This document shows positions 13,213 to 22,912 of a stretch of DNA of 35,688 nt, piece by piece. The notes under the pieces were generated by a model. The model was not told the origin of the DNA. It ran no database searches and worked only from the letters and a program-made list of their open reading frames with translations. Location of the stretch: assembly GCA_009699125.1 (NCBI GenBank), contig WLOT01000005.1, positions 1-35,688 on the forward strand. Reading direction: 5' to 3'. The position numbers and the translations under genes are program-made. The DNA comes from Actinomycetota bacterium (GTDB lineage Bacteria; Actinomycetota; Acidimicrobiia; Acidimicrobiales; Acidimicrobilacustridaceae). Numbering within the stretch: position 1 is the first letter of the stretch; every line of letters starts with the position of its first letter.

Positions 13213-13419
13213 CTATTTGCGGCGCTTGCCGTACCGCTTCTCGAACTTCTCGATGCGGCCGCCGGTATCAACCAGCTTCTGCTTGCCCGTATAGAAGGGA
13301 TGGCACTCGTTGCAGAGTTCTGAAGTGAGCTCGGCCTTCGTGGAGCGCGTGGTGAAGGTGTTCCCACAGGAACACTTCACGGTCGATTCGACGTAGTCGG
13401 GATGAATGTCGGCCTTCAT
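13213..13419 (-). CDS. rpmE: 50S ribosomal protein L31 (Zn-ribbon form)
   Basis: [68 protein letters not shown]. Confidence 0.98.
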
Positions 13420-13510: not shown

Positions 13511-15112
13511 TTAGCCCTTGGCCACCTCGGCCAAGAACTCGTCGTTGGTGCGGAAGGTGCCCAATCGGTCGATGAGCATTTCAAGGCCCGGACCAGCACT
13601 TCCGCCCTCGGCCAGCCCCGCAAGGACCCGGCGAAGCTTGTGGACCTGCTTGAGCTGCTTGGCGTCGTACAACAACTCTTCGTGACGAGTGGAGGAAGCA
13701 TCGACATTGATCGCTGGGTACAAGCGACGCTCGGCGAGACGACGGTCGAGGCGCAGTTCCATGTTTCCGGTGCCCTTGAACTCTTCAAAAATGACGTCAT
13801 CCATCTTCGAGCCGGTTTCGACGAGTGCGCTGGCGATGATCGTGAGCGAGCCACCCTCTTCAAGATTTCGGGCAGCACCAAAGAACTTCTTCGGCGGATA
13901 GAGCGCTCCGGTGTCGATGCCACCAGACATCACGCGACCAGTTGCCGGAGCCGCCAAGTTGTAAGCCCGTGCAAGACGCGTAATGCCATCGAGGATGATG
14001 ACAACGTCGCGGCCTTCTTCCACCAAACGCTTGGCGCGTTCAAGGACGAGTTCCGCAACCGACGCGTGCTCTTCAGCTGGTCGATCGAAGGTCGACGCGA
14101 CAACTTCCCCGTTCACCGAACGACGCATGTCGGTCACTTCTTCAGGGCGCTCGTCAACAAGAAGCACCATCAGGTGGACGTCTGGGTTGTTTTCAGAGAT
14201 CGATTTTGCGATCTGCTTCATGATCGTGGTCTTGCCCGCCTTCGGCGGCGCAACGATGAGACCGCGCTGGCCCTTTCCGATCGGAGCAAGAAGGTCGATG
14301 ATCCGAGTCGTCATGTTGTACGGCTCGTCGCGCGACGAAAGTGTGAGGCGCTCGTCAGGGAACAACGGCGTGAGATCATCGAAACGGCGACGATCGCGAG
14401 CCGAATCGGGCGCTCCCCCATTGACAGAGTCAATGCGAAGCAGCGCCGGGTTCTTTTCGTTGCGCGCGGCCGGGCGACTCGTTCCGACGATGACGTCGCC
14501 ACGACGAAGCGAGAACTGGCGGGTTTGCTTGACCGACACATACACGTCGTCACGAGTAGGCAAGTAGCCACTTACACGGATGAAGCCGTAGCCCTCGTCT
14601 CGAAGATCAAGAACGCCCGAGACCTCAACGGGATCGCCCGACCACGGCTCATCAGTACGTGTTTCGAAACGTTCGCCGCCGCGATCACGGCCACGGCGTC
14701 GACGACGGCGGCCGGCACCCTCGCCATCGTCACCATCGGTGTCGGTTCCAGCAGCCGGACGGGATGGGATTTCGTCTGCACCCGAATCTCCGGCGTCATC
14801 ACCGTCATCACCGTCATCGCCGTCATCACCGTGATCGGCATCGTCATCAGTCGAGACCTCGTCGTCGATCTCAATGACCTCTTCGACTTCGTCCTCGGCA
14901 GTTGTCTCTTCAACAGCCGCAGCCTTCGGCGGACGACCACGTCGTGGCTTGGGCGACGCAGGCTCGGAGTCGGCGATGAGGCCAAGGATCATGTCGATCA
15001 CATCGGCCTTCTTTGCGCGAGAGCCGGGCTTGCCGCCAAGAGTCGACGCAATTGTCAGGAGCTCGTCACGATCTTTCGCTTCAAGCGTGGCGCGTTGATC
15101 TTTCTCGGACAT
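13511..15112 (-). CDS. rho: Transcription termination factor Rho with acidic/RG-rich N-terminal insertion
   Basis: [77 protein letters not shown]. Confidence 0.98.
14795..14839 (+). repeat. 9-bp tandem repeat (GTCATCACC-type) encoding DDG repeats within rho
   Basis: gtcatcacc gtcatcacc gtcatcgcc gtcatcacc gtgatcggc. Confidence 0.8.
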
Positions 15113-15201
15113 CGGGACCTCGTTCCTCCCGGACGCAATCGACCAGGTGAGATAGGGAAAACTTTGAAAAGTGAACTGAACAGCGGTGCGGGAGAGACAT
15201 C

Positions 15202-15215
15202 GCTTCGATCGAAGC
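15202..15215. promoter_or_regulatory. 14-bp perfect palindrome GCTTCGATCGAAGC in rho 5' region
   Basis: Direct reading; about 90 bp upstream of the rho ATG. Confidence 0.4.
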
Positions 15216-15312
15216 AATGGTCCGTCGGACGACGGGGAGACGCCGGACCAGCCGAAGCGGTCACAAGCGACGACGTCAGGTTAGTGGCGACCCAGTCGGG
15301 CGACCAAGCAGG

Positions 15313-16458
15313 TCAACGAGCGACCAAGCGCCCCATGAGTTCATGTCCTGGCACGACAGGCAGGTCGGCGACACCGGCTTCGGTGTACTCGCCACCGGAA
15401 CCATCGATCGTGGAGTCGAACAGCAGGTAGGGAACCGCGTCGGATGTATGGGTGCGGAGCGCGAGCGGCGTTGCGTGATCGGGAAGCAGAAGCATTCGCC
15501 ACGGACCACTTGCATCGAGCGATTCGACGAGGCCGGCGAGGATTCGTGAGTCCCAGTTCTCGAGTGCACGAACTTTTTCTTCGACGTTGCCAGCATGGCC
15601 AGCTTCGTCGGTTGCTTCGACATGAACGATGAAGAGGTCGAGCCCATCGTCGAGCCCATCGACAGCACAATCGCGCTTGCCCTCGTAATCGGTGTCGTAC
15701 CAACCAGTCGCCGATTCAAGTTCGACAACTTCGATATCGGTCAGCACACCAAGACCGCGAACCAGATCAACCGCTGTAACAAGTCCGGCTTTGAGTCCGT
15801 ACGTGGATTCAAACGAAGGCATTTGCGGCTGGAATCCTTGGCCCCACAGCCACACCGTGTTTGCATCGATGTCGAAGTCGGCGAGGATGTCGCGAGACGC
15901 GTCCATCACGCGCTGGAGCTTTGCCGCAGCGGGACCAGTTGGCCACACAAGCGACTTACCGGTCAGATCATGCGGCGGCGCACATTCGGCTTCGGCCCAA
16001 TCGGCGGGCGCAACCATGATGTGGCGATACTGAACACCGCGATGAAACTCGATGCCTTCATCGGCGAATGCTTTGTGCATCGCTTCGATTGCTCCGGCAG
16101 CGCGTTCGGTTGAGGGATGCCCGCCAGCGAAGTCGATCATCGTTCCGTCTTCGCCAATCGTTGAAAGATTGCAGCGATAGGCCACTTGATCGGGACGGAG
16201 CTTCAGGCCGAGTGCTGCGGCTTCGATTGGCGCGCGACCGGTGTGGTACTCGGCCGGGTCGTAACCGAAAATCGACATGTTGCCGACATCGGAACCTGGC
16301 GGAAGTCCCTGCGGAATGACCGCTGCGCGTCCGAGCGTCGAACGAGCAGCGATGCGATCGAGCACAGGAGTGTGCGCAGCTTGGAGGGGGGTACGTCCGC
16401 CGAGCTCAGCGAGCGGCTCGTCGGCACAACCATCGGGGACACAGACCACGTATTTCAT
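15313..16458 (-). CDS. ApgM-type phosphoglycerate-mutase-fold protein; candidate alternative homoserine kinase
   Basis: MKYVVCVPDGCADEPLAELGGRTPLQAAHTPVLD...GLPPGSDVGNMSIFGYDP...HVEATDEAGHAGN...LLLPDHATP; sits directly after hom and thrC. Confidence 0.85.
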   Translation of the reverse strand: MKYVVCVPDGCADEPLAELGGRTPLQAAHTPVLDRIAARSTLGRAAVIPQGLPPGSDVGNMSIFGYDPAEYHTGRAPIEAAALGLKLRPDQVAYRCNLSTIGEDGTMIDFAGGHPSTERAAGAIEAMHKAFADEGIEFHRGVQYRHIMVAPADWAEAECAPPHDLTGKSLVWPTGPAAAKLQRVMDASRDILADFDIDANTVWLWGQGFQPQMPSFESTYGLKAGLVTAVDLVRGLGVLTDIEVVELESATGWYDTDYEGKRDCAVDGLDDGLDLFIVHVEATDEAGHAGNVEEKVRALENWDSRILAGLVESLDASGPWRMLLLPDHATPLALRTHTSDAVPYLLFDSTIDGSGGEYTEAGVADLPVVPGHELMGRLVAR

Positions 16459-16504: not shown

Positions 16505-17914
16505 TCAGGACTTATCGAGAGTTGCTTCGATGAGGCCGCGGACGGTGGCGAAATCGTTGGCGCAGACTTCGAAGTGCTCGGGACGATCGAAGAGATCGGC
16601 AAGGTGTTCAGGTAACGGTGGTCGAACACCAGACGCGGCCTCAACCGCATCGGGGAACTTCGCCGGATGGGCAGTGGAAAGCACCACCATTGGCACCGAT
16701 GCATCGGCCCGAGCCTGCCGGGCTGCGGCCAATCCAACCGCTGTGTGCGGATCGAGCAACATGCCGCTTCGCTCAAACTCGGTGGCGATGGTCGCCGCTG
16801 TTTGTGCATCGTCAACACGAGCAGCGGACCAATGATCGGCCAGCAGCTCGAGACGATCCCCGCTGACCGACACCGTTCCCTCGGAGCGGAACCGAGCCAT
16901 GAGTTCGGCAATGGCTGCACCATCTCGCCCATGGATTTCGAATAACAACCGCTCAAGGTTCGACGAAACCTGAATATCCATGCTCGGGCTCAGTGTGGGA
17001 TGAACCTCACCGATCGTCATAGTTCCGGTTGTGAGGAACTGCGTCAGGATGTCGTTGCGATTCGACGCCACGATGAACTGCGAAATGGGCGTTCCCATGC
17101 GTTGCGCGCCGTAACCGGCAAAAACATTTCCGAAGTTGCCGGTGGGGACAGAGAACGCAACTGGTCGACCAGCGCCGCCACCAAGGCGCACTGCACAGGT
17201 GACGTAATAAACCATCTGCGCCATGACTCGGGCCCAGTTGATTGAGTTGACTGCCGACAAATTGCGCGACTCACGGAACTGGTCGTCAGCAAACAACGCC
17301 TTGACCATGTCTTGGCAATCGTCGAACGTCCCCTGCACAGCAATGTTGTGCACATTCGGCGAAAGCACGGTGGTCATCTGACGACGCTGCACATCGGAAA
17401 CTCGACCAGCAGGGTGGAGGATGAACACTTCGGCGGTGGGGCGATCACGCAGCGCTTCGATTGCGGCGCCGCCGGTGTCGCCAGAAGTTGCGCCGACAAC
17501 TGTGACCTTCTCGCCGCGGCGCGTGAGTTCGTGATCGAACAGACGACCAACGAGCTGTAGCGCAATGTCTTTGAACGCAAGCGTCGGGCCGTGAAACAAC
17601 TCGGCGAGCCAGAAGTTGTCTCCAAGGTCAACGATCGGAACAACTTCATCAGTCGCGAAGGTTGCGTAGGCATCGTGAACGATTGCCGCAAACGCGTCTC
17701 GTTCAATCGAACCTTCGACGAATGGCCACATAACTTCGGTGGCGATTTCGGCATAGGACATCGATTCGAATCGCTCGAAGGCGCCGACGGTGAGCGATGG
17801 CCATTGCGACGGAACGTAGAGACCGCCATCGATTGCCAAACCGGCAAGCAGGACATCGGCAAAGCCAAGTTCGGGTGCGGCGCCGCGGGTGCTGACATAG
17901 GTGATCGGGGCCAT
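16505..17914 (-). CDS. thrC: Threonine synthase
   Basis: MAPITYVSTRG...; FHGPTLAFKDIALQLVG, VVGATSGDTGGAAIEALR, SVPTGNFGNVFAGY. Confidence 0.95.
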   Translation of the reverse strand: MAPITYVSTRGAAPELGFADVLLAGLAIDGGLYVPSQWPSLTVGAFERFESMSYAEIATEVMWPFVEGSIERDAFAAIVHDAYATFATDEVVPIVDLGDNFWLAELFHGPTLAFKDIALQLVGRLFDHELTRRGEKVTVVGATSGDTGGAAIEALRDRPTAEVFILHPAGRVSDVQRRQMTTVLSPNVHNIAVQGTFDDCQDMVKALFADDQFRESRNLSAVNSINWARVMAQMVYYVTCAVRLGGGAGRPVAFSVPTGNFGNVFAGYGAQRMGTPISQFIVASNRNDILTQFLTTGTMTIGEVHPTLSPSMDIQVSSNLERLLFEIHGRDGAAIAELMARFRSEGTVSVSGDRLELLADHWSAARVDDAQTAATIATEFERSGMLLDPHTAVGLAAARQARADASVPMVVLSTAHPAKFPDAVEAASGVRPPLPEHLADLFDRPEHFEVCANDFATVRGLIEATLDKS

Positions 17915-19224
17915 TAGCGGTCAGCCTCAACGAGTACGCGAATCGTGGAACCAATGCTTCGAACTGAATCGAGCACACCGAGCGCATCGAGCGTGGCGCG
18001 GACATCGCTCTGCAACGCTGGATGAATGATCAGATCGATGCGCGCTTCGTTTGCAGCATCATCTGGTCCTGACAATGAGTGTTGTTCCATTGAGTCGATC
18101 GACACACCGTGCTCGCCAAAGACTCCTGCGATGGATGCGAGCACACCCGATCGATCGTCGACTCGAAGACTGAGATACCACGCCGCAGCGAGTTGATCGC
18201 TTGGGCGAATCGCCATTGGCACAAAGGCTCCAAGCGATGCATGGGCGCCGCTCTGCAGATTTACTGCCGCGTCAACCAGATCCCCCAGAACCGCCGATGC
18301 GGTGGGATCGCCACCAGCGCCACGGCCGTAGAACATGAGATCGCCGACAGCCTCGCCTTGAACAAAGACGGCGTTGAAGCTGTCGCGCACGGCCGCAAGT
18401 GGATGTGAGTTTGGAACCAGGCATGGATTCACTCGCGCAGAAAGCTCATCGCCGTTCGAATCAGAGAATCGCTCAGCGATTGCAAGAAGCTTGATCGCAA
18501 AGCCATGCCGCTTTGCAAACGCTATGTCGTCCGCGGTGACCTTTGAGATGCCTTCACACTCAACATCGGAACTCGTCACTTCCGCACCAAACGCAATCGA
18601 CGCAACGATGGCGATCTTCGCCGCAGCATCGTGACCTTCAACATCTGCGGTTGGATCAGCCTCCGCGTAACCCAATGCCTGCGCTTCGGCGAGCGCCTCG
18701 GAATAATCGGCGCCTCCTTCAGTCATGCGGGTGAGGATGTAATTCGTCGTTCCGTTCATGATGCCCATGACGCGAACAACGGGTTCGGCAAGCAGCGATT
18801 CACGCAACGGCCGTATGAATGGAATGCCGCCAGCGACCGACGCCTCAAAAAGAAGGTCAACACCAGCCGCTTCTGCTGCAGCGAACAGTTCGGAACCGTG
18901 CGCTGCGAGAAGAGCTTTATTGGCCGTAATGACCGGCTTGCCTGCAGCGAGCGCGGCCAGGATGAGTTCACGCGCAGGCGAGATGCCCCCCATGACCTCG
19001 ACGACCACGTCGATGTTTGGGTCAGTGGCCACCGCCATTGCGTCGGAGGTAAACGCAGCGCTGTCGATGCCGATTGGACGAGCCCGAGAAACGTCACGAA
19101 CAGCGATGCGAGAGATCTCGAGGGAAAGTCCGGTGCGAGCCTGAATGGTGGCGTTCTGGCGATCGATGAGCGCGACGAGTGACGCCCCGACCGTCCCGCA
19201 ACCCAGGAGTCCGACTCGAATCAC
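17914..19224 (-). CDS. hom: Homoserine dehydrogenase with C-terminal ACT domain
   Basis: VIRVGLLGCGTVGASLV, VITANKALLAAHG, GIMNGTTNYILTRM, YLSLRVDDRSGVLASIAGVFGEHGVSIDSMEQ; alternative GTG at 19236. Confidence 0.95.
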   Translation of the reverse strand: MIRVGLLGCGTVGASLVALIDRQNATIQARTGLSLEISRIAVRDVSRARPIGIDSAAFTSDAMAVATDPNIDVVVEVMGGISPARELILAALAAGKPVITANKALLAAHGSELFAAAEAAGVDLLFEASVAGGIPFIRPLRESLLAEPVVRVMGIMNGTTNYILTRMTEGGADYSEALAEAQALGYAEADPTADVEGHDAAAKIAIVASIAFGAEVTSSDVECEGISKVTADDIAFAKRHGFAIKLLAIAERFSDSNGDELSARVNPCLVPNSHPLAAVRDSFNAVFVQGEAVGDLMFYGRGAGGDPTASAVLGDLVDAAVNLQSGAHASLGAFVPMAIRPSDQLAAAWYLSLRVDDRSGVLASIAGVFGEHGVSIDSMEQHSLSGPDDAANEARIDLIIHPALQSDVRATLDALGVLDSVRSIGSTIRVLVEADR

Positions 19225-19285: not shown

Positions 19286-20020
19286 TCAGCCCACAACCAC
19301 GCTGATGATCGTCACAACAGCGGTAACGGCAAGCAGAATCGTGACGAGACCACGGAATCGCATCGGATCGACATGACCCCGAAGTCGAAGTCCGAGCGAG
19401 AATCCAATTGCCAACGCCGGAGCCGCAACCAGCAACGCCAGCGCTACGTCTCGGGTGAAGTGTCCGGTCGCACCAAAGAGCACGAGGGAAATCAGGCCGA
19501 TTCCAACGAAGACCGCAGAGATGGTCCCGCGAAACGTGTGCGGAGAGAAGTGGCGGGCGTGGATCGCCATGACGAGTGGGGGTCCGTTTGTCGAAAGCGA
19601 GGTACTCAGAACTCCACCGACAAAACCAGCAGCGAGGTCGACAGGGACACTCGCGTGCTCGAGTTTGAACCCACGAAGATTGAGAAGCAGAAAGAGAACG
19701 ATCACTGCGGCGAGACCCAACTTCAATTGCTGTGAGCTGGCGAAGTTGAGAATCACGAGTCCGAATGGAGCGCCAACAACCGCAGCCAGCAACAGTCGCT
19801 TGATTGTCGGTCTGTCGCCATGGTGGCGCTCGGACCACGCCTGACCACCACTCGTAAATGTCCCTAGCGTCGCCGCGATTACGACTGCAGCGTCAGTGGG
19901 AATTGCCATCGACATAAGCGGAACCGCAAGCAAGGCGAATCCAAATCCTGTGATCGTCTGAATGAGCGACGAAAGAAGGACTGCGAAAGCAACAAGAAGT
20001 AGCGCAGAGGTCGACACCAA
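19286..20020 (-). CDS. TauE/SafE-family membrane permease
   Basis: Multi-TM protein (SSLIQTITGFGFALLAVPLM..., GGVLSTSLSTNGPPLVM). Confidence 0.85.
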   Translation of the reverse strand: MVSTSALLLVAFAVLLSSLIQTITGFGFALLAVPLMSMAIPTDAAVVIAATLGTFTSGGQAWSERHHGDRPTIKRLLLAAVVGAPFGLVILNFASSQQLKLGLAAVIVLFLLLNLRGFKLEHASVPVDLAAGFVGGVLSTSLSTNGPPLVMAIHARHFSPHTFRGTISAVFVGIGLISLVLFGATGHFTRDVALALLVAAPALAIGFSLGLRLRGHVDPMRFRGLVTILLAVTAVVTIISVVVG

Positions 20021-20025
20021 CGGAC

Positions 20026-21297
20026 CTAGTCGACTTCGAGAAGTAAGAGATCGTCGAGTGTCTCGCGGCGAACAACAAGGCGAGCTTCGCCGTTCGCGAC
20101 AAACACAACCGCCGGACGCGTGACCTTGTTGTAATTCGACCCCATTGAGTGGCCGTACGCGCCAGTTACTGGCGTCGCGAGAATGTCTCCGACAACAAGG
20201 TCTGCCGGAACGATTGCATCGCGAACAAGGATGTCGCCGGATTCGCAGTGCTTTCCCACGACGGTGACGACGCGATCGCGATCGGCGCCAACTTCTCGCG
20301 GAAGAAACGCCTCGTAACCACTGCCATAAAGAACCGGGCGCGGGTTATCGCTCATTCCGCCATCGACAGAGACATAGGTGCGGATGGCGGGAATGTCTTT
20401 GATCGTTCCCACCGAATAGAGCGTGATCGCTGCTTGAGCGACGAGGGCTCGCCCGGGCTCGGCGGTGACATGAGCCGTGATGCCAGCTGCGTCGCACGCG
20501 GCCTTCACAACAGCACCCCATTCGGTGATCGAAGCCGATTCTTCGCCAGCAACGTAGGCAACGCCGAGTCCCCCGCCCACGGAGAACTCCGGCAACGCGT
20601 GCTTCTGTACGAATGGCGCCATGACCTCGATGGCCATCTCAAAGAACTCTGCGTCGAACACCTGTGAACCGATGTGTGCATGAAGACCAACAAGATCGAT
20701 TGCAGGCGACGCCGCCGCTCGGAGAACTGCGGCATCGGCCTGTCCACTTGCGAGGCCAAAACCAAACTTGGAATCGTCCTGGCCCGTGCGAACGAACTCG
20801 TGAGTGTGCGCTTCAACCCCGGGAGTGACGCGAATGAGCGCCTTCGGAACAGGCAAGCCTTCCGCAACGAGAGATTCGATGCGATCGATCTCGTCGAACG
20901 AATCGATGATGATGCGACCGATACCTTCGGACATCGCACGCCGGAGTTCCGCGGTGCTCTTGTTGTTCCCGTGCAGAACAAGACGATCGGCGGGAACCCC
21001 TGCAGAACGGGCGACGTGATACTCGCCTCCGGTCGACACATCGAGATTGCAGCCTTCTTCGACAGCAAGGCGGGCCATCGCCTGGCAAAGGAACGCCTTG
21101 GTCGCGAAATTCACGCCGACACCAAACGCGGCAACTGCTTCACGACAACGCGCACGAAGGTGTTCTTCGTCGTAGACAAAGAGCGGCGTACCGAACTGCT
21201 CAGCGAGTTCAAGAGTGTCGCAGCCACCGATGATGAGTTGGCCCTTGTCGCCAATCGTGGCCGTATCGGGCAGTAACGAAAACGGAAGCGTGCTCAT
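20026..21297 (-). CDS. lysA: Diaminopimelate decarboxylase
   Basis: VNFATKAFLCQAMARL, LDVSTGGEYHVA, HGNNKS, LGLHAHIGSQ-like VGLHAHIGSQ, CESGDIL. Confidence 0.96.
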   Translation of the reverse strand: MSTLPFSLLPDTATIGDKGQLIIGGCDTLELAEQFGTPLFVYDEEHLRARCREAVAAFGVGVNFATKAFLCQAMARLAVEEGCNLDVSTGGEYHVARSAGVPADRLVLHGNNKSTAELRRAMSEGIGRIIIDSFDEIDRIESLVAEGLPVPKALIRVTPGVEAHTHEFVRTGQDDSKFGFGLASGQADAAVLRAAASPAIDLVGLHAHIGSQVFDAEFFEMAIEVMAPFVQKHALPEFSVGGGLGVAYVAGEESASITEWGAVVKAACDAAGITAHVTAEPGRALVAQAAITLYSVGTIKDIPAIRTYVSVDGGMSDNPRPVLYGSGYEAFLPREVGADRDRVVTVVGKHCESGDILVRDAIVPADLVVGDILATPVTGAYGHSMGSNYNKVTRPAVVFVANGEARLVVRRETLDDLLLLEVD

Positions 21298-21304
21298 CGG
21301 AGGC

Positions 21305-22912
21305 TCACATCTGGTCGGGTGCGCTAACACCCAACAGGTCGAGACCGATTGCAAGACCAACCGATGCAGCTTCAACAAGATGGAGGCGCGCTTGCGTGAG
21401 TTCGGTGGAGACACCATCGCCCATCACGTAACAGTCGTGGTAGAAGCCGTGCACTGCACCAGCCAGTTCGCGCACCCAAGTAGCGATTCGGTGCGGGGCT
21501 CGATCAGTTGCTGCGGTCGACACCGTGTCAGGGAGTTCAGAGAGAGCCCGAAGCACATCGAGTTCGCGTTCGTGAGTAAGCAGAGAGAGGTCGACCTGCA
21601 TCAGAGGAGCAACCGCGACGCTTCGTTCTGCAGCAACGCGGAAGATTGACTGAATGCGGGCATAGGCCATTTGCACGTAATAGACGGGGTTATCCATCGC
21701 CCGACTCTTTACGACGTCGTAATCGAACGTCTGCGTCGAATCGATGGACTGCAGCAGGTACGTAAGCCGGGCCGAATCAGCACCAACTTCGTCGAGCACC
21801 TCAGAGAGCTCGACGATGTCACCAGCACGCTTCGAAAAGCGGACGGGTTCGCCACCCTTGAGCAGATTCACCAGCTGAATGATCGCGCATTCGAGTTCGG
21901 ACGGATCATGTCCGAGTGATTGCATTGCTGCCTTCATGCGCGGAACATAACCGTGGTGATCGGCTCCCCATACGTCGATGAGAAGGTCGTAGCCACGAGA
22001 GAACTTGTCACGGTGGTAGGCGATATCGGGAAGCAAGTAGGTGAACTCGCCGTCACTCTTAATGAGCACACGGTCTTTGTCGTCGCCGTAATCGGTAGAG
22101 CGAAGCCACACGGCGCCGTCTTCGTCGTACACAACGCCACGTTCACGGAGATCAGCCAACGTCACATCGATTGCGCCAGAAGCAACCATTGACTTCTCGC
22201 TGAACCAATTATCGAATTCGACATTCATGCGACTGAGCGTGAGCCGATGATCGGCGACCGCTCGGTCTTCGCCCCATTCAAAAACGTCGGCATCGGCCGG
22301 CAACTCGGCTGCCCATTCAACGATGTACTCGCCCTGATAACCACCTTCGGGCAATGGCGTTCCGTCTCGGCGCGCAATCAGCGATGCGACGAAGAGCTGC
22401 ATCTGGGTGCCGCGATCGTTGAGATAATTCTCGCGATCGACGTCGTAGCCGCATCGTTCAAGAATGCGAGCAAGAGAATCGCCGTAAGCGGCACCGCGTC
22501 CGTGGCCAGCATGCAACGGCCCAGTCGGATTCGCGCTTACAAACTCGAGCAGCACCTTCGTGCCATCGCCAGTTGCGGAACGGGCGTAGTTCTCAACGCC
22601 AGACGTTTCGACGTCGACGAGAACATCGTGCAGCCACGAGTCGGCCAATCGGAAGTTCACGAAACCAGGACCAGCGATTTCTACCGACGTCACGTGGGCC
22701 GGAAGGTCAGCGTTGATGATCTCGGCCATACGCCCGGCGAGCTCGCGGGGATTCCAGCCTGCGGCCTTTGCCGTTGCGAGAGCAATGTTCGACGACCAAT
22801 CGCCATGCTCACGCCGGGCTGGGCGCTCAAGATGGACCGATTCGGGAATCGGTGCGATCTCGAGGGTCGACAATGCCGATCGCAGGGCGGTGGCGAGGGT
22901 GTCGCGAATCAC
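21305..22912 (-). CDS. argS: Arginyl-tRNA synthetase
   Basis: SANPTGPLHAGHGRGAAYGDSLARIL, GADHHGYVPRMKAAMQSLG, C-terminal ALLOWED anticodon-binding region; GTG start at 22912. Confidence 0.96.
   Translation of the reverse strand: MIRDTLATALRSALSTLEIAPIPESVHLERPARREHGDWSSNIALATAKAAGWNPRELAGRMAEIINADLPAHVTSVEIAGPGFVNFRLADSWLHDVLVDVETSGVENYARSATGDGTKVLLEFVSANPTGPLHAGHGRGAAYGDSLARILERCGYDVDRENYLNDRGTQMQLFVASLIARRDGTPLPEGGYQGEYIVEWAAELPADADVFEWGEDRAVADHRLTLSRMNVEFDNWFSEKSMVASGAIDVTLADLRERGVVYDEDGAVWLRSTDYGDDKDRVLIKSDGEFTYLLPDIAYHRDKFSRGYDLLIDVWGADHHGYVPRMKAAMQSLGHDPSELECAIIQLVNLLKGGEPVRFSKRAGDIVELSEVLDEVGADSARLTYLLQSIDSTQTFDYDVVKSRAMDNPVYYVQMAYARIQSIFRVAAERSVAVAPLMQVDLSLLTHERELDVLRALSELPDTVSTAATDRAPHRIATWVRELAGAVHGFYHDCYVMGDGVSTELTQARLHLVEAASVGLAIGLDLLGVSAPDQM

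Follow-up and report, generated by a model that had tools for sequence, protein, structure and literature searches.

The gene at positions 15313..16458 (- strand) of the window, the 35,688-nucleotide stretch of freshwater actinobacterial DNA that was analysed, very probably codes for ThrB2, the enzyme that phosphorylates homoserine in a hom-thrC-thrB2 pathway, with a predicted reaction, predicted residue roles and a putative phosphoryl donor. Homoserine kinase is well supported as the role of this protein and is a candidate activity. Hom would supply homoserine, ThrB2 would convert it to O-phosphohomoserine, and ThrC would convert this to threonine. The substrate of ThrC is O-phosphohomoserine. 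Threonine synthase and homoserine dehydrogenase are both present in the genomes of the window family, and O-phosphohomoserine must therefore have a source.

The homoserine-kinase idea is not new, TIGR02535, BT2402 and 'ThrB2' having all been published. Homoserine kinase was a low-confidence step for 20% of the 148 prototrophs in one study, which also found a TIGR02535 member in 15 of the 29 prototrophs lacking ThrB; the proposal that TIGR02535 is a homoserine kinase came from TIGRFAM curators (PMC7311316). A gut-genome study named ThrB2, and reported that its occurrence is complementary to that of ThrB and that it swaps with thrB inside an operon (PMC9026213). SitesBLAST analysis of BT2402 found the zinc sites kept and a calcium site not kept (PMC9765024). 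A different replacement of ThrB, related to shikimate kinase, has been proven in Desulfovibrio (PMC5764234). The D. vulgaris enzyme resembles the present case as a non-orthologous ThrB replacement, which was found by genetics (PMC5764234); it differs in being a shikimate-kinase relative that complements E. coli thrB and is unrelated to the window protein. The papers found report no demonstrated activity for a TIGR02535/ThrB2 member, and a search spanning part of the literature returned no published account of ThrB2 in Acidimicrobiia.

The locus and the slot between thrC and rho

The ThrB2 candidate is an intact open reading frame of 381 aa with an ATG start and no internal stops. It was assigned to the ApgM family (PRK04200/TIGR02535-like), as a proposed homoserine phosphotransferase, from HMM scores, residues, predicted fold and tree position. 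Its ATG lies 46 bases from the stop codon of thrC (16505..17914, -), a long-form threonine synthase (Thr_synth_N, PALP and THR4_C domains by Pfam; HMM score 269 bits) that consumes O-phosphohomoserine. The thrC gene overlaps by 1 base with hom (17914..19224, -), the homoserine-producing homoserine dehydrogenase, which carries an ACT domain (HMM score 533.7 bits, and Pfam). Downstream of the slot the conserved flank is rho (13511..15217, -; HMM). The upstream flank is lysA, encoding diaminopimelate decarboxylase (20026..21417, -; HMM), the listed frame of which probably extends 5' of the real start.

The complete order on this strand is argS, lysA, a TauE-family gene, hom, thrC, the ThrB2 candidate, rho, rpmE (13213-13419), a conserved protein, prfA and prmC, where argS, rpmE, prfA and prmC were named by sequence and position and not by HMM. 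These ORF and HMM checks bear out the coordinates and the order hom, thrC, ApgM-like gene, rho given in the preliminary description. The TauE/SafE-family transporter gene (19286-20020, -; Pfam) occupies the space between lysA and hom; L105-L107, which are close relatives, have a lysA-hom gap of about that size, and hom directly follows lysA in L111, L114 and L119. The conserved protein between rpmE and prfA (approximately 335 aa; 12159 to approximately 13170, -) has no Pfam match, and counterparts with 33-42% identity occupy this position across Acidimicrobiales. Its listed 402-aa frame overlaps rpmE at the 5' end.

The hom-thrC-ThrB2 order recurs in Acidimicrobiia, Nitrospirota, Omnitrophota, deltaproteobacterial lineages and Gaiellales. 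Because it recurs across phyla, this gene order is not due to chance.

Within the window order (families f1-f9) the slot between thrC and rho was found in three states, containing ThrB2, GHMP thrB or nothing. ThrB2 occupies it in f1 and in one genome of f9 (G114); in the f9 genome G110, hom-thrC has been relocated and ThrB2 still adjoins rho. GHMP thrB occupies it in an order-mate of family f6 (G075), in the order hom-thrC-thrB-rho (TIGR00191, 135.6 bits). This ThrB thus shares both slot and pathway step with the window protein, but has an unrelated fold and is absent from the window genome. In f2, f8, f4 and f5, and outside this order also in f15 and f26, the slot is empty (hom-thrC-rho) and ThrB is encoded elsewhere. 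In other orders ThrB2 is located next to or close to rho and follows hom and a thrC of the short form; in some cases a gene for an SDR, a sortase or a glucose/sorbosone dehydrogenase separates thrC from ThrB2. These intervening genes were considered as hidden kinases and rejected. In f1, f2, f6, f8 and G114 thrC is of the long (THR4-like) type; f3-f5 and other orders carry a short thrC in this hom-thrC slot. An in-place exchange of thrC itself seems to have occurred.

The window protein might alternatively act in threonine synthesis without itself phosphorylating homoserine, for instance by needing a partner enzyme, by preparing the phosphoryl donor, or by making another activated homoserine for ThrC. 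In favour of such an indirect role, BT2402 mutants of Bacteroides thetaiotaomicron require threonine, yet BT2402 failed to complement an E. coli thrB mutant (PMC7311316). However, no additional gene common to the clusters was observed, those between thrC and ThrB2 being the three types named above, and GHMP thrB alone can occupy the same slot. An indirect role is accordingly considered unlikely.

Family scores, residues and proposed chemistry

Profile searches (hmmscan, NCBIfam) gave the ThrB2 candidate 427.6 bits, over its full length, against NF003242/PRK04200 (cut-off 426), 408.8 bits against TIGR00306 apgM (cut-off 320) and 417.4 bits against TIGR02535, 'proposed homoserine kinase' (cut-off 446.3). 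Of TIGR02535 and TIGR00306, the two models suggested for comparison in the preliminary description, the apgM cut-off is passed and that of TIGR02535 is missed. The Pfam domains are PhosphMutase and Metalloenzyme. The NCBIfam and Pfam profile searches returned no GHMP match, placing the protein outside the GHMP homoserine kinases (TIGR00191).

The TIGR02535 cut-off is exceeded in only 3 of 119 class genomes. In the ThrB2 tree the window protein falls in one clade (support 100/99) with above-cut-off proteins of G012, G006 and G040 (453-498 bits), and it shows the ThrB2 combination of linkage to threonine genes and absence of ThrB. With TIGR02535 and BT2402 it shares the ApgM branch, the threonine-gene context and the complementarity to ThrB. 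It differs from them in its score (417 against a cut-off of 446), its rho-linked actinobacterial locus, its long-form ThrC partner and its likely ancestral status in the class. The closest named protein record is from a Microthrixaceae MAG (L104; 97% identical). Farther named homologues within Acidimicrobiia come from Candidatus Microthrix UBA2974 (L119), MedAcidi-G2B (L121) and the complete genome IMCC26256 (L135). By its closest named relatives the window genome belongs to Microthrixaceae, class Acidimicrobiia.

An AlphaFold2 model of the candidate (pLDDT 96, pTM 0.92) matched ApgM 2zkt best among PDB structures (TM 0.81), followed by 3idd/3kd8, iPGM and phosphopentomutase. The iPGM ligand set (D9, S56, D284, H288, D327, H328 and H337) is kept in all aligned class members and across phyla. 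Codons S56-D57-V58-G59 (16282..16293, -) include the invariant and predicted phospho-accepting S56, its role being taken from iPGM/ApgM homology. Codons 281-288 (15595..15618, -) include, by alignment and homology, the metal ligands D284 and H288, and carry E281 in place of the Lys of true ApgM, three residues ahead of D284.

The predicted fold and the metal and nucleophile set are shared with archaeal ApgM (PDB 2zkt, 3kd8/3idd) and bacterial PRK04135, whereas the substrate side differs. Relative to ApgM, the conserved swaps are N60 (H in ApgM), H114 (R), Y144 (H), P161 (D), W203 (L), W205 (R), D231 (P), E281 (K) and R321 (V); H163-D164 and a PPHD motif are additions in ThrB2. The comparison set was small (n = 9), consisting of two PDB ApgMs and seven PRK04135-type proteins of the class, these seven being close relatives, and against these nine sequences the candidate departs from the conserved non-metal residues of ApgM proper by at least eight conserved swaps. 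The loss of Arg, Lys and His together with the gain of acidic residues fits an ammonium-bearing acceptor rather than phosphoglycerate, as far as can be judged from an alignment.

By homology to the cofactor-independent phosphoglycerate mutases, ThrB2 would be a two-metal, double-displacement phosphotransferase. One predicted metal site comprises D9, S56, D327 and H328, and the other D284, H288 and H337. S56 would accept the phosphoryl group from the donor and hand it to the gamma-hydroxyl of homoserine in a phosphoserine relay. The donor may be a nucleotide or a phospho-metabolite, for example PEP or 3-phosphoglycerate. Nothing usable was found in the literature on PhpG enzymology as a precedent for transferase chemistry in the family. 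All residue roles in ThrB2 are putative and homology-based.

Homoserine kinases and phosphoglycerate mutases in the class

The window genome (G000) is 80.75% complete. For this reason absences were also read in a genome of the same genus (G023, 98%) and in two genomes of the same family (G035, 100%; G083, 97%). GHMP ThrB (TIGR00191) and ThrB_alt (TIGR00938) had no match in any of these four, and ThrB_alt had none above cut-off in the class. The two GHMP-domain proteins found in each of G000 and G023 are galactokinase (TIGR00131, above cut-off) and IspE, and the weak TIGR00191 matches (<54 bits) in ThrB2 genomes were likewise rejected as ThrB.

A shikimate-kinase-type homoserine kinase was also considered and rejected, each window-family genome having one full-length SKI match; in G000 this is accompanied by a second match at 21 bits, below cut-off. 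Two order-mates, both of f9, contain a second shikimate-kinase-family protein of 107-113 bits (G110:C1:1210812-1211279 and G114:C8:97301-97759).

These searches bear on a further reading, in which the organism either is auxotrophic for threonine or relies on a homoserine kinase of unrecognised type, possibly encoded in the 19% missing from the assembly, and the window protein has another function. The incompleteness of G000 and the existence of genomes with neither enzyme speak for it. It is nevertheless extremely improbable, as G023, G035 and G083 show the same pattern and the shikimate-kinase family yields a single full-length match per window-family genome.

A phosphoglycerate mutase is encoded separately. 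The window genome contains a full GpmA on contig C38 (TIGR01258, 349.5 bits; PRK14120, 366.5 bits against a cut-off of 366), and GpmI (TIGR01307) was ruled out as absent. GpmA covers glycolysis, and the ThrB2 candidate is therefore free for another job. PRK04135-type ApgM was found in seven class genomes, all seven without a full GpmA; three tested proteins scored 450, 509 and 527 bits against a PRK04135 cut-off of 468. The PRK04135 type is found where GpmA is lacking (p = 2e-7), an association that ThrB2 does not show (p = 0.21); phosphoglycerate mutase and ThrB2 are therefore separate jobs in the class. The class PRK04135-type ApgMs (L093-L098, L030) have Glu at the position of the metal-ligand His of archaeal ApgM and ThrB2 (H288), and seem to be the sole phosphoglycerate mutases of their genomes.

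That the window protein is itself a glycolytic phosphoglycerate mutase, as its PRK04200 name implies, standing beside hom-thrC for historical reasons, is therefore very unlikely. Its full-length match just above the PRK04200 cut-off, its apgM score and its complete set of metal and nucleophile residues agree with that name. Against it are the gene context, the full GpmA and the conserved substrate-side residues unlike those of ApgM; a second, distinct ApgM of the PRK04135 type is present in each of the six GpmA-less ThrB2 genomes, and a mutase would leave no known homoserine kinase.

An alkaline-phosphatase-superfamily protein that sits where thrB would be and supplies the missing homoserine-kinase step, as the preliminary description held, is thus upheld by the absence of GHMP ThrB and ThrB_alt, the separate GpmA and the G075 thrB in the same slot. 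That description would have been abandoned had a GHMP thrB been found elsewhere and no other phosphoglycerate mutase; the opposite was found, in an 80.75% complete genome with which the 97-100% complete relatives agree.

Co-occurrence was scored in 119 Acidimicrobiia genomes, ThrB being a TIGR00191 match of >=100 bits and ThrB2 a strong TIGR02535 match. ThrB2 alone was present in 25, ThrB alone in 61, both in 4 and neither in 29, of which 26 come from a single family of streamlined genomes (f13). With this family excluded, the counts are 25/61/4/3 (Fisher p = 2e-15, ignoring kinship). A kinship-aware test on an rpoB tree gave five well-supported independent pairs, with 3.3 on average in the opposite direction and 0 in the same direction (p 0.125-0.5); the pairs are too few for significance.

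The four genomes with both genes (G020, G084, G107 and G111) all belong to family f19, and their GHMP ThrB is located elsewhere than ThrB2. A transitional state or divergent roles are possible. These genomes, the failed complementation by BT2402, a score below the TIGR02535 cut-off and just above that of a family named phosphoglycerate mutase, the non-significant kinship-aware test, the small ApgM comparison set and the genomes outside f13 with neither gene count against the ThrB2 reading.

Genomes of f13/genus g26 (e.g. G011, G017 and G065; L283) are streamlined to approximately 1 Mb, and hom together with a divergent thrC is present in most of them; GHMP ThrB, ThrB2 and ThrB_alt were not found in them, and their homoserine-kinase gap is unfilled. 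G091 (f2, 97% complete; L273) has hom and a long thrC without ThrB or ThrB2. Its contig stops shortly after thrC, so a slot gene could be missing. As three genomes outside f13 are without both genes, the class may have homoserine kinases of still other kinds.

Direction of replacement and implications

In the ThrB2 tree the class is monophyletic (100/99), with f14+f17 basal, then f25, then the window order against a group of f20, f27, f23 and f19. The rpoB tree agrees in outline (window order 100/99, f14+f17 100/95) and differs at f25. In it the ThrB2 carriers of the window order, f1 and f9, form one group, weakly supported (77/70). The GHMP ThrBs of the window order do not form one clade, those of f2, f6 and f8 grouping with f19, apart from those of f3, f4, f5 and f7. 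A tree constrained to unite them was worse by 68 log units (AU p = 0.001, or 1e-7 when the long G075 branch was left out).

These single-gene trees suggest that ThrB2 is probably the ancestral enzyme of the class, displaced by GHMP ThrB that was gained on two or more occasions. This direction is also favoured because ThrB, where present, is mostly encoded elsewhere with the slot empty. The non-orthologous replacement proposed earlier is thus retained as a role, and its direction, displacement of ThrB by an ApgM-type enzyme, is not: the opposite is favoured by ThrB2s that are monophyletic and broadly in line with rpoB, and by GHMP ThrBs of the order that do not form a single clade.

What is new is the class-wide case, the three states of one slot, the score just below the TIGR02535 cut-off and the probable reversal of direction. 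Few steps of bacterial amino-acid synthesis seem to be missing as often as homoserine kinase. Proteins of this kind pass the phosphoglycerate mutase model by approximately 2 bits and miss the homoserine-kinase model; the pathway therefore seems interrupted, and its hosts seem to be auxotrophs. Acidimicrobiia provide a clean natural experiment, with three states of a single slot among members of the same order and a separate phosphoglycerate mutase in every GpmA-less ThrB2 genome. The residue signature is offered for telling ThrB2 from phosphoglycerate mutase, and complete genomes with ThrB2 exist (e.g. IMCC26256). A fuller scheme is conceivable, although less likely than not, in which an ancestral ThrB2 of Acidimicrobiia uses a non-ATP metabolite (such as PEP or a phosphoglycerate) as donor in its phosphoserine relay and was displaced repeatedly by ATP-dependent GHMP ThrB. 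If this is true, the non-ATP donor would tie threonine synthesis to glycolytic intermediates, and the direction of replacement would be the reverse of the usual one.
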